A stretch of 21,836 nucleotides of DNA from a virus, in IMG/VR virus record IMGVR_UViG_3300007234_003798, positions 1 through 21,836 of that record. One strand, given 5' to 3'. Shown piece by piece: positions 8,005 to 18,289 of this stretch (its first letter is position 1; every line of letters begins with the position of its first letter). The position numbers and the translations under genes are program-made. The notes under the pieces were generated by a model. The model saw only the letters and a program-made list of their open reading frames with translations, was not told the DNA's origin and made no database searches.

Positions 8005-8811
8005 ATGACAGAAGCACTTTTAGATAAAAATAAATCTGCCTTTAAACTTAAGGGTATGGGTCCGATATATTGTATCAATCTGGATGATCAACCAGAAAGA
8101 TGGAAGTATATGGAAGATCAATTTAAGTATTGGGAAATTGAAAACTATACTCGCATCTCTGGATATGATGGCCGTGATGATGACTTGAGTGATATACTCA
8201 CAGGAAAATATCCTGATAGAGTTTCTTCTGGAGAAATTGGATGTTCTACAAGTCATCTTAAAGCCATCAAGCATTGGTTAGAAACTTCTGATTCTCCTTA
8301 TGCGATTATGATGGAAGATGACTGTAGTTTAGAAACGGTAAGGTTTTGGAATTTTACTTGGAATGACTTTTATGCACATGTTCCATATGATTGGGATGTA
8401 GTTCAAATTGCTATTATCTGTACTGGGGATATTCATGTTCGTCTTCACAAAAGATTTGTAAATGATTTTTCAACAGCATGTTATATTATCAATCGTCATC
8501 ATGCAGAAAAACTTTTAAGATTTCATGTTCGTGGTGAAAAGTATAAATTGGACAATGGATGTAAACCAAGACCAGTTGCTGATGATTTGATTTATAATTC
8601 CGGTAACACTTATTCCATGCCCCTATTAGTCTATAGAACAGAACTTGGGTCTTCTATACACCCAGAGCACGTTGACATCTATCACAAGGGCAATTACCAG
8701 GCTCTCACTAACTTTTGGCAACAGAATGGTGCTAATATTGATATTGTTGATTATATGAACTACGATCCATATCTTGGAAGAATTACGGAACCAACACAAA
8801 GAGATGCTTGA
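8005..8811 (+). CDS. GT25 family glycosyltransferase (LPS biosynthesis type)
   Basis: 268 aa. IYCINLDDQPERW near residues 21-33, followed by GEIGCSTSHLKAIKHWL and YAIMMEDDCSL, is the standard series of GT25 motifs, with the E-D-D site thought to bind the metal and UDP-sugar. GT25 members such as LgtB/Lex2-type enzymes transfer galactose or glucose to LPS. It is the last gene of the glycan module. Its stop codon lies inside the -35 box of the next promoter, which marks the boundary with the photosynthesis block. Confidence 0.9.
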   Translation: MTEALLDKNKSAFKLKGMGPIYCINLDDQPERWKYMEDQFKYWEIENYTRISGYDGRDDDLSDILTGKYPDRVSSGEIGCSTSHLKAIKHWLETSDSPYAIMMEDDCSLETVRFWNFTWNDFYAHVPYDWDVVQIAIICTGDIHVRLHKRFVNDFSTACYIINRHHAEKLLRFHVRGEKYKLDNGCKPRPVADDLIYNSGNTYSMPLLVYRTELGSSIHPEHVDIYHKGNYQALTNFWQQNGANIDIVDYMNYDPYLGRITEPTQRDA

Positions 8812-8836
8812 CAGAACTTTACATTTCCTATATAAT
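8808..8836 (+). promoter_or_regulatory. Consensus sigma70-type early promoter of the hli operon
   Basis: TTGACA at 8808-8813 and TATAAT at 8831-8836 are both perfect consensus hexamers with a 17-bp spacer. The -35 box includes the TGA stop of the upstream glycosyltransferase. hli begins 25 bp after the -10, leaving a short leader. Confidence 0.85.
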
Positions 8837-10330: not shown

Positions 10331-10365
10331 AAACTCTGTTCTAAATAAAGGACAGAGTTTTTTTT
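10331..10365 (+). terminator. Intrinsic terminator closing the hli-ferredoxin operon
   Basis: AAACTCTGT (10331-10339) pairs perfectly with ACAGAGTTT (10352-10360), followed by an eight-T run (10358-10365, partly in the stem). The loop contains CTAAATA. Confidence 0.85.
10341..10347 (+). promoter_or_regulatory. Possible late promoter box in terminator loop
   Basis: CTAAATA, a T4-late-like box, lies in the loop of the terminator and 23 bp before the ATG at 10371. The position is right for a late transcript of the 53-aa ORF. The motif is short, so support is modest. Confidence 0.35.
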
Positions 10366-10370
10366 GTATT

Positions 10371-10532
10371 ATGTCACATAACCAATTGACAAGAGATGAA
10401 ATCAAGTGTCATGTTCTTAAGTTAAAACATCAAGTTGATCAAGAGCCAAAAACTGTATGGCAAGGAGAAAAGGATCTTGCTCATAAGTATCTTAATTTGG
10501 TCTTGGACAAGATAGAGGAATATCGATTTTAG
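10371..10532 (+). CDS. Small hypothetical cyanophage protein (53 aa)
   Basis: ATG 10371 to TAG 10532. A charged, mostly helical protein with EIKCHVLKLKHQVDQEPK and LAHKYLNLVLDKIEEYRF; no signal or membrane segment. It fills the space between two terminators just upstream of psbA and looks like the small helical ORFs common in cyanophage photosynthesis regions. Its stop codon forms part of the next terminator stem. Confidence 0.65.
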   Translation: MSHNQLTRDEIKCHVLKLKHQVDQEPKTVWQGEKDLAHKYLNLVLDKIEEYRF

Positions 10533-10552
10533 GGGTTGACACCCCTTTTTTT
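10531..10552 (+). terminator. Intrinsic terminator whose loop carries the psbA -35 box
   Basis: GGGGT (10532-10536) pairs with ACCCC (10541-10545), extended by A10531-T10546, with loop TGAC and a T tract at 10546-10552. The last stem base, the loop and the first base of the 3' arm spell TTGACA, the -35 of the next promoter. Confidence 0.82.
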
Positions 10553-10564
10553 GTGCCTTATAAT
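10536..10564 (+). promoter_or_regulatory. psbA promoter P1 (consensus sigma70 type)
   Basis: TTGACA at 10536-10541 and TATAAT at 10559-10564, spacer exactly 17 bp. The spacer contains the T tract of the overlapping terminator. Start would be near 10571, giving a psbA leader of about 250 nt. Confidence 0.82.
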
Positions 10565-10598
10565 AGACAGGTCTTCGGGAGACACCGCTTCAACACCT

Positions 10599-10624: not shown

Positions 10625-10653
10625 TTGACAAGTAGTGGAGACCGTAGTATACT
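10625..10653 (+). promoter_or_regulatory. psbA promoter P2 (sigma70 type)
   Basis: TTGACA at 10625-10630 and TATACT at 10648-10653 (5 of 6), with a 17-bp spacer. The -10 runs straight into a late-type box, reading TATACTAAATA. The leader from here would be about 160 nt. Confidence 0.7.
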
Positions 10654-10658
10654 AAATA
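10652..10658 (+). promoter_or_regulatory. Late-type box overlapping psbA P2
   Basis: CTAAATA resembles the T4 late box TATAAATA and shares two bases with the P2 -10. It could let the phage late sigma factor drive psbA from almost the same start. Confidence 0.45.
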
Positions 10659-10820
10659 AATCAACGACAAAGAAGTTTACATTTCTTAACCGTTGGAACA
10701 CACCCCGCAAACCGAGACCTCTAGGGTGTCTAAATCACGTCTCTTATATCCCAAGGCGAGGGGTCTTGGGAAATAGTAACTCCACCATGTCCCTGATGGT
10801 CTTACTTAAATTTCAAAACA

Positions 10821-11900
10821 ATGTCTTCTACAACACTTTCAAAACAACAATCGAATACTTGGGACCAGTTCACTGAGTGGGTCACTTCCACCAACAATCG
10901 TCTTTATGTTGGTTGGTTCGGAACTCTTATGATTCCAACCCTGCTTGCTGCTACACTCTGCTTCATCGTTGCCTTCATCGCTGCTCCTCCTGTGGACATC
11001 GATGGCATCCGTGAACCAGTCGCTGGTTCTCTCCTTTATGGAAACAACATCATCTCTGGTGCTGTTGTTCCTTCTTCTAACGCAATTGGACTCCACTTCT
11101 ATCCCATCTGGGAAGCTGCATCACTTGATGAATGGCTTTACAACGGTGGTCCTTATCAATTGGTCGTCTTCCACTTCCTGATTGGCATCTTCTGCTACAT
11201 GGGTCGTGAGTGGGAACTTTCTTATCGTCTGGGTATGCGTCCCTGGATCTGCGTTGCATATTCCGCACCTGTTGCTGCTGCATCTGCTGTATTCCTGGTC
11301 TATCCTTTCGGTCAAGGTTCTTTCTCTGATGGTATGCCCCTTGGTATTAGTGGCACGTTCAACTTCATGCTTGTCTTCCAAGCAGAGCACAACATCCTGA
11401 TGCACCCCTTCCACATGCTTGGTGTGGCTGGTGTCTTCGGTGGTTCACTGTTCTCCGCAATGCACGGTTCTCTGGTTACTTCTTCACTGGTTCGTGAAAC
11501 CACAGAAAACGAGTCCCAGAACTATGGTTACAAGTTCGGTCAAGAAGAAGAGACCTACAACATTGTTGCTGCTCATGGATACTTTGGTCGTCTAATCTTC
11601 CAATATGCATCCTTCAACAACTCCCGTTCACTTCACTTTTTCCTTGCAGCATGGCCTGTCGTAGGAATCTGGTTCACTGCACTTGGTGTTAGCACCATGG
11701 CATTCAATCTCAACGGTTTCAACTTCAACCAGTCCATCATCGACGGTCAAGGTCGTGTGCTCAACACCTGGGCAGATGTGCTGAACCGTGCCAACCTCGG
11801 GATGGAAGTGATGCACGAGAGGAACGCACACAATTTCCCTCTGGATCTTGCTGCTGCTGAGTCCACTCCTGTTGCACTTACTGCTCCAACCATCGGTTGA
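10821..11900 (+). CDS. psbA: Photosystem II D1 protein
   Basis: 359 aa, colinear with cyanobacterial D1 from the [15 protein letters not shown] helix to the tail. Visible functional residues are Tyr161 (TyrZ), Asp170 and Glu189 (Mn cluster region), His198 (P680 ligand) and the C-terminal DLA processing site at 342-344 followed by a 15-residue extension. Residue 130 is Glu (MGREWEL), the form of high-light D1 isoforms. No intron interrupts it. Phage D1 replaces host D1, which photodamage removes during infection. It is visibly richer in G+C than the glycan genes. It has two upstream promoters and its own terminator. Confidence 0.98.
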
Positions 11901-11986: not shown

Positions 11987-12352
11987 ATGAAAACTTGTAG
12001 CATCTGTAAGCAAGAGTTGCCTCTTTCAAACTTTCATAAAAGAACTTATGCTTCTGGAAATATTGGATATCAAAATAAATGTAGAAAATGCACCACTACT
12101 GTTAGGAGAGAGTATTATAAGCCCCACGAAAAAACTAGACAAAAACTAAAAATTAGTGAGGAGCAGTATAATGATCTAATGAAGAATGAGAACTGTCAAA
12201 TATGTGATGCAGAACTAACCAAGAAGTGTATTGACCACTGCCACTCCACAAACAAGATACGGGGTGTCCTCTGCAACAACTGCAACACCGCACTGGGTCT
12301 TGTAGGAGACAACACCCATATCCTCCAAAAGATGATTGAGTATCTCGGTTGA
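11987..12352 (+). CDS. Endonuclease VII/HNH-type nuclease, possible free-standing homing endonuclease
   Basis: 121 aa from ATG 11987; a TTG 21 bp upstream is a weaker start. The N-terminal half has CSICKQELPLSNF and KCRKC, a zinc-finger-like Cys set. The C-terminal half has CQICDAEL, then IDHCHSTNKIRGVLCNNCNTALG, the recombination endonuclease VII signature (DHCH...RG.LCN.CN..LG) with its zinc cysteines and catalytic D/H. T4 gp49 resolves Holliday junctions, but short relatives scattered in phages are often mobile endonucleases. Its place between psbA and psbD recalls endonucleases near psbA in other cyanophages such as S-PM2. It looks more AT-rich than psbA. Confidence 0.85.
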   Translation: MKTCSICKQELPLSNFHKRTYASGNIGYQNKCRKCTTTVRREYYKPHEKTRQKLKISEEQYNDLMKNENCQICDAELTKKCIDHCHSTNKIRGVLCNNCNTALGLVGDNTHILQKMIEYLG

Positions 12353-12377
12353 TATAAAAACTAAATACTGATATAAT
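12349..12377 (+). promoter_or_regulatory. Promoter running into a terminator hairpin
   Basis: TTGATA at 12349-12354 (5 of 6) and TATAAT at 12372-12377, spacer 17 bp. The -35 includes the stop of the endonuclease gene, and a late-type CTAAATA (12361-12367) lies in the spacer. The predicted start near 12384 is inside the 5' arm of the next hairpin. Confidence 0.6.
12361..12367 (+). promoter_or_regulatory. Late-type box CTAAATA
   Basis: Lies 38 bp before the ATG at 12406 and within the spacer of the sigma70-type promoter above. A transcript from here would start just before or within the terminator stem. Confidence 0.35.
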
Positions 12378-12378
12378 A

Positions 12379-12404
12379 AGAGGGTCACACAGACCCTCTT
12401 TTTT
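12379..12404 (+). terminator. Intrinsic terminator of the endonuclease gene
   Basis: AGAGGGTC (12379-12386) pairs perfectly with GACCCTCT (12392-12399), loop ACACA, followed by T's to 12404. The ATG of the next gene is 1 bp beyond the T run. Confidence 0.85.
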
Positions 12405-17511: not shown

Positions 17512-17540
17512 TTGACTAAATAAGGTATAAGGTCTATAAT
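17512..17540 (+). promoter_or_regulatory. Sigma70-type promoter with overlapping late-type box
   Basis: TTGACT at 17512-17517 and TATAAT at 17535-17540, 17-bp spacer. CTAAATA at 17516-17522 overlaps the -35. GGTCTA-TAA-TAGACC (17531-17545) is a perfect 6-bp inverted repeat centred in the -10. Confidence 0.75.
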
Positions 17541-18036: not shown

Positions 18037-18059
18037 ATTACTTGTATTAGAATGCATAG

Positions 18060-18085
18060 GAGAGGTTGACTACCTCTCTTTTTTT
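18060..18085 (+). terminator. Intrinsic terminator whose loop carries a -35 box
   Basis: GAGAGGT (18060-18066) pairs perfectly with ACCTCTC (18072-18078), loop TGACT, T run 18079-18085. The loop with the last stem base spells TTGACT. Confidence 0.85.
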
Positions 18086-18094
18086 GTCTATAAT
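18066..18094 (+). promoter_or_regulatory. Promoter nested in the terminator
   Basis: TTGACT at 18066-18071 and TATAAT at 18089-18094, 17-bp spacer made of the 3' stem arm and the T tract. Expected start is about 18101, 15 bp before ATG 18116. Confidence 0.7.
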
Positions 18095-18115: not shown

Positions 18116-18289
18116 ATGGATAGAGATAAATTAAAACTCATCATCAAAAACATGGAACTCCTTCTCGATTCTTTGAAAGCAGAAGTGCTTTCTGAACCTG
18201 AATCGTACTTACAGGGAGAATACTTAAATTATCCACAAATTACTGACTATGATGAGGTATTTGATGATGACGATGGATACCCCGATTAA
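18116..18289 (+). CDS. Small acidic hypothetical protein (57 aa)
   Basis: ATG 18116 to TAA 18289. An N-terminal helix (DKLKLIIKNMELLLDSLKAE) leads to an acidic end (DYDEVFDDDDGYPD). Soluble, no family recognised. It is the first gene after the nested terminator/promoter and overlaps the next gene by 17 nt. Confidence 0.7.
   Translation: MDRDKLKLIIKNMELLLDSLKAEVLSEPESYLQGEYLNYPQITDYDEVFDDDDGYPD

Follow-up and report, generated by a model that had tools for sequence, protein, structure and literature searches.

A putative composite terminator-promoter element of cyanomyoviruses with the -35 box in the terminator loop

The psbA upstream region and two composite elements

The window, by which the whole stretch of DNA that was analysed is meant (a virus record of 21.8 kb), is related to marine Synechococcus myoviruses. 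Ahead of psbA, the gene of the photosystem II D1 protein (10821..11900, + strand), it carries an ORF of 53 aa belonging to phrog_566 (function unknown; 10371..10532, + strand), whose stop codon TAG at 10530-10532 shares two bases with the base of a hairpin stem. From 10531 on, the 34 bases of the element read A-GGGG-TTGACA-CCCC-TTTTTTT-GTGCCT-TATAAT. They comprise a predicted terminator hairpin, AGGGGT(TGAC)ACCCCT (10531..10546, + strand, -8.7 kcal/mol), and a tract of 7 T, evident from the sequence (10546..10552, + strand), which lies within the spacer of a putative promoter, P1. The -35 box of P1, TTGACA (10536..10541, + strand), is formed by the TGAC loop together with the closing T-A pair, and the -10 box, TATAAT (10559..10564, + strand), stands 17 bp past it. 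P1 is thus a 12/12 match to the consensus with a spacer of exactly 17 bp, and its start site would fall at about 10570-10572. This confirms the sequence-only reading, which had placed TTGACA across a terminator loop with TATAAT 17 bp further on; strictly, the loop is TGAC and the outer T and A are paired.

The hairpin at 10531 is modest when taken alone, with a stem of just 6 bp and a z-score of -1.75 over 27 nt, and folding of the 70-nt stretch around the P1 element is uninformative (z 0.38). A stronger hairpin is found in a second composite of the window, where AGGAGAGGT(TGACT)ACCTCTCTT is followed by TTTTTG (18058..18080, + strand, -12.4 kcal/mol) and overlaps a promoter of the form TTGACT-17-TATAAT with an 11/12 match (18066..18094, + strand). 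This element ends 21 nt ahead of its predicted target, a phrog_878 gene of unknown function (18116..18289, + strand). Both composites display the features of intrinsic terminators, namely a G/C-rich stem, a short loop and a T run directly 3' of it, and the window as a whole holds 22 terminator-like sites vs 9.4 expected.

Between P1 and psbA lies a second promoter of the sigma70 type, P2, with the layout TTGACA-17-TATACT (10625..10653, + strand), followed by the structured leader PhotoRC-II (RF01717, 73.7 bits; 10687..10784, + strand). Relative to psbA, the composite P1 is positioned at -285 and the conserved P2 at -196. The -10 box of P2 continues into a late-promoter-like CTAAATA (10652-10658), the region 10648-10658 being TATACTAAATA, and this overlap of early and late signals recurs across many psbA upstream regions. 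P2 (10625-10653), PhotoRC-II (10687-10784) and the twin element at 18058-18094 had been missed by the sequence-only reading.

Other signals in the window are overlapping as well. At 17512-17540, TTGACTAAATA..GGTCTATAATAGACC, a promoter is combined with an inverted repeat over its -10 and a late-like motif over its -35, and it is little changed in S-SKS1 (197516), S-PM2 (142280) and Syn9 (159895). A strong terminator at 10331-10360 (12 bp, -15 kcal/mol) has CTAAATA in its loop. A late-promoter counterpart of the composite class was considered and rejected, as CTAAATA occurs at 3 of 1494 terminator loops vs 1 for its reverse complement and is not enriched.

Recurrence of the composite among cyanomyoviruses

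The window contains 2 promoters of at least 11/12 with the -35 on a terminator loop, vs 0.02 expected from rotation, and 5 copies of it with shuffled dinucleotides yielded no composite. For comparison, 16 complete cyanomyovirus genomes as well as RB49, T4 and KVP40 were scanned for promoters and strict terminators. Offsets of the -35 from the terminator loop peak sharply at zero in the cyanomyoviruses, with 30 cases at -2..+2 and 1-2 in the neighbouring bins. Promoters of at least 10/12 have their -35 on a loop in 29 cases vs 2.7 expected, with a maximum of 10 in 2000 rotations, and those of at least 11/12 in 15 cases vs 0.68 across the same 16 genomes; RB49, T4 and KVP40 have no promoter of at least 10/12 in this position. 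TTGAC ranks third among loop 5-mers (36 of 1325 cyanomyovirus terminators, vs 15 for its reverse complement) and is found at 1 of 341 terminators in RB49, T4 and KVP40 together. Under the strict criteria, at least one composite is present in 12 of the 16 cyanomyovirus genomes and none in Syn9, S-CRM01, Syn33 and SynMITS9220M01; real genomes reach up to 6, shuffled ones 0-1. In the scanned genomes the main coding strand carries nearly all of the composites, and the stems within one genome are mostly unlike. S-SKS1, for instance, has composites at psbA, at hli and elsewhere. The search that the sequence-only reading had proposed, for hairpin loops containing TTGAC with TATAAT 17 bp on, does return further cyanomyoviruses, with unlike stems.

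Orthologous sites were located via the downstream protein rather than via the hairpin. A promoter lies 15-35 nt ahead of the start codon in 13 phrog_878 genes; it is composite in 11 of them, with 11 different 5' arms in five pairing registers. For hli, the count is 13 composites among 33 promoters, again with differing arms and registers. Swapping the 25-nt 5' flanks among orthologues left a mean of 6.6 good stems for phrog_878 and 6.8 for hli, and none of 2000 swaps matched the real stem count in either family; an earlier, smaller hli set had given 12 of 16 composites vs 6.35. The comparison thus indicates that the arms vary and still pair, with the -35 between them fixed. The hli promoter of the window itself (8808-8836) is a perfect 12/12 match and not composite, although its counterpart is composite in many relatives, which means that the composite form comes and goes and the promoter stays.

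At psbA the picture is more restricted. The steady feature of about 100 cyanophage psbA upstream regions is P2, located at about -180 to -210, directly ahead of PhotoRC-II. P1 does not correspond to this conserved cyanophage psbA promoter, and a composite is absent from most of these regions: it occupies the place of P1 in the window and S-SKS1 only, and the place of P2 in L006 and L009. Further psbA composites came from a targeted scan, with L768 equal to the window over the whole element and L769, L771 and L783 of the S-SKS1 type. When the P1 sites of the two lineages are aligned, TTGAC, six T and TGCCTTATAATA are invariant, and the arms are GGGG/CCCC in the window lineage and GACCC/GGGTC in the S-SKS1 lineage. 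The role at psbA assigned by the sequence-only reading would apply to the window and S-SKS1 lineages and is not supported as a general psbA feature, since most relatives do without the composite. That reading had regarded its loss from close relatives with psbA expression as evidence against it, and most relatives do keep psbA and lack the composite, carrying P2 instead. As judged from these alignments, two lineages maintain the composite at psbA, although psbA in general does not depend on it.

The class was also sought in metagenomic and bacterial sequences. An IMG/VR scan with the pattern TTGAC..T6..TATAAT returned at least 122 matches and, among the matches listed, 43 of 122 carry the -35 in a loop closed by a G/C stem. 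All 43 composites among the matches listed are spaced by 16-18 bp (35 by 17), and at 39 of these 43 loci, again among the matches listed, cyanomyovirus genomes take most of the best protein matches. A control with a scrambled -35 (TTCAG for TTGAC) has a hairpin in 11 of 116 matches, 0 of these at 16-18 bp, while scrambling of the -10 (TTGAC..ATTATA) gave a control set contaminated by real composites, whose -10 (TATATT/TATAAT) lies just upstream. In a scan of bacterial genome contigs, a hairpin accompanies just 11 of 120 matches; these hairpins are mostly A/T-rich and show no spacing preference, and the composite class is not general in this Clostridia-rich sample.

Several metagenomic loci vary the design. 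In L302, L345, L355, L356, L765 and L776 a nested CTGGCAAAATCCAG hairpin lies beside TTGAC, with an outer stem such as AGGGGC..GCCCCT. The composites of L301, L311 and L327 have a common ccctttttttacgacTATAAT 3' part, and their contigs are distant from cyanomyoviruses, with a best ORF identity of 36-48%; going by these three loci, other marine myoviruses may also carry composites of this class.

The offset distribution of the cyanomyoviruses has a second peak at +33..+42, made up of hairpins that begin, for the most part, 0-2 nt after the -10. This geometry accounts for 22 cases in the cyanomyoviruses plus the window, where TATAAT is followed by AAGAGGGTC(ACACA)GACCCTCTT and a T tract (12349-12400). 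With the hairpin directly after the -10, transcription would begin within the 5' arm, and the same logic would apply, in that incoming RNA would form the hairpin and new RNA would not. Several of these cases carry an identical TTGCCAAGAGGCAACGCTCTGTGA before the -10. It is probably the coding end of psbD, so that those -35 matches may reflect the protein.

Proposed function and competing explanations

Taken together, the element is probably, with good confidence from sequence comparison, a composite of an intrinsic terminator and an early promoter for host sigma70, which would end one operon and start the next within about 34 bp. RNA polymerase arriving from upstream would transcribe the G/C hairpin together with the U tract, releasing its RNA at about 10548-10553. 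The same DNA would be bound by host RNA polymerase with a sigma70-type factor through the -35 in the loop and the -10 past the T tract, and initiation would occur at about 10571, some 7 nt past TATAAT. As the new RNA would be devoid of the 5' arm, it would neither contain the hairpin nor terminate. The proposal of the sequence-only reading, in which a single piece acts as terminator and promoter and the new RNA lacks the 5' arm, thereby gains support from both the sequence and its relatives. At psbA, the composite would provide an extra upstream promoter and a barrier to read-through ahead of P2 and the PhotoRC-II leader; actual termination, initiation and insulation at the composite are predictions from its sequence. 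Cyanomyoviruses are without alt, modA and modB, and their early genes are believed to be transcribed by host RNA polymerase in its unmodified form, together with a factor of the sigma70 type (PMC2984593).

As the promoter would be covered by a polymerase halted at the T tract, the terminator and promoter functions could interfere with each other. Both occlusion and a hand-off are possible outcomes. In a hand-off, the polymerase would release its RNA at the U tract, stay over the -35 and -10, regain sigma and restart, which we consider a rather improbable course of events. If it did occur, upstream transcription would feed the downstream gene instead of blocking it, and the geometry would couple termination to initiation.

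The overlap could have arisen by chance where a promoter and a terminator, each of the ordinary kind, share a crowded intergenic space, as the gaps of cyanophages are short, both signals are abundant and 6-bp stems are common. The peak at zero offset, the rotation and shuffle controls, the 17-bp spacing and the orthologous sites kept with changed arms speak against this, and make coincidence very hard to believe. An inverted repeat around a -35 could also be read as the operator to which a dimeric repressor or activator binds, and not as a terminator, a palindrome covering the -35 being a classical operator position. Such a protein site would be expected to have a fixed arm sequence, and there is none, with 11 different arms at 13 phrog_878 sites, whereas the T tract on the side of the coding strand is constant; varied arms and a constant T tract fit the terminator hairpin of an RNA and do not fit a protein site, so that an operator is highly implausible.

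Somewhat more weight, though still with little likelihood, can be given to a short mobile piece that mainly promotes gene shuffling by recombination and carries its transcriptional roles along. A role of this kind has been credited to the PeSL cassettes of T4-like phages in work cited in PMC4503421, near-identical pieces are found ahead of unrelated genes in ACG-2014f and S-MbCM7, and S-SKS1 holds three related stems (198124, 152961 and 22757). On the other hand, stems within one genome are mostly unlike and hence poorly suited for homologous exchange, orthologous composites remain before the same genes, and shuffling by PeSLs was judged unlikely for S-PM2 by the authors of PMC4503421. The last alternative concerns the window alone, where P1 might be weak or silent, with P2 driving psbA and the composite serving only as a terminator. 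Most relatives keep P2 and not P1, and P2 combines an early -10 with a late-like motif; P1, however, is a perfect 12/12 match, invariant in two lineages and closer to the consensus than the P2 of the window, which leaves a silent P1 unlikely but worth bearing in mind.

If the composite does combine terminator and promoter, each of a series of tightly packed gene modules could close off transcription and begin it anew, the leaders being about 15 nt long. How early and middle transcription is controlled in cyanomyoviruses has been described as still unclear (PMC2984593), and TTGAC in a terminator loop with TATAAT 17 bp on provides a searchable rule for operon boundaries in these phages.

Comparison with known composite cassettes

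Composite cassettes have a precedent in T4-like phages, for which the promoter-early stem-loop (PeSL) was reportedly described by Arbiol et al. in 2010 and by Comeau et al. in 2014 (Genome Biol Evol). PeSLs are treated as established composite promoter-terminator cassettes of these phages where they are cited in PMC4503421 and PMC5931544. Common to the PeSL and the cyanophage composite are a strong early promoter of the sigma70 type and a stem-loop terminator in a short element between co-directional genes. Both window composites have such a promoter (12/12 and 11/12, with 17-bp spacing) and, in the same short element, a predicted hairpin with a T tract.

The layout differs among the phages. 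In RB49 cassettes, the terminator precedes the -35 by 28-47 nt, or the spacer holds a hairpin that lacks a T tract; the RB49 layout, with the terminator upstream of the -35, is not that of the cyanophages, in which the offset peaks at 0. Unlike RB49, the cyanophage composite uses the -35 itself as the loop and has the T tract in the spacer. In KVP40, the four copies of AAAAGGGTTGACTACGGTCAGCCCTTTCTTG-TATTAT resemble the cyanophage form in that a terminator-like hairpin extends over the -35 and stops short of the -10; these arm-type elements were also caught by the composite finder when a looser loop window was used, and were counted apart. In KVP40, however, the -35 is paired as part of the 5' arm, which ties the stem to the -35 sequence and renders the copies near identical, whereas the cyanophage composite has its -35 in the loop, with stems that are free to vary.

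With regard to a possible hand-off, Kang et al. 2020 found that after intrinsic termination the polymerase often stays on the DNA and can reinitiate nearby if sigma is retained (PMC6978380). Theirs was a single-molecule system with bacterial RNA polymerase, involving neither an overlapping terminator-promoter nor cyanophages, and the composites offer natural templates on which to ask whether a polymerase recycles directly from a terminator to an overlapping promoter. A literature search, with the two PeSL originals outside its reach, returned no paper in which a terminator loop holds a -35 box, and Comeau et al. 2014 may mention such a form. The cyanophage composite may accordingly be placed among PeSL-type cassettes as a geometrically tighter variant.
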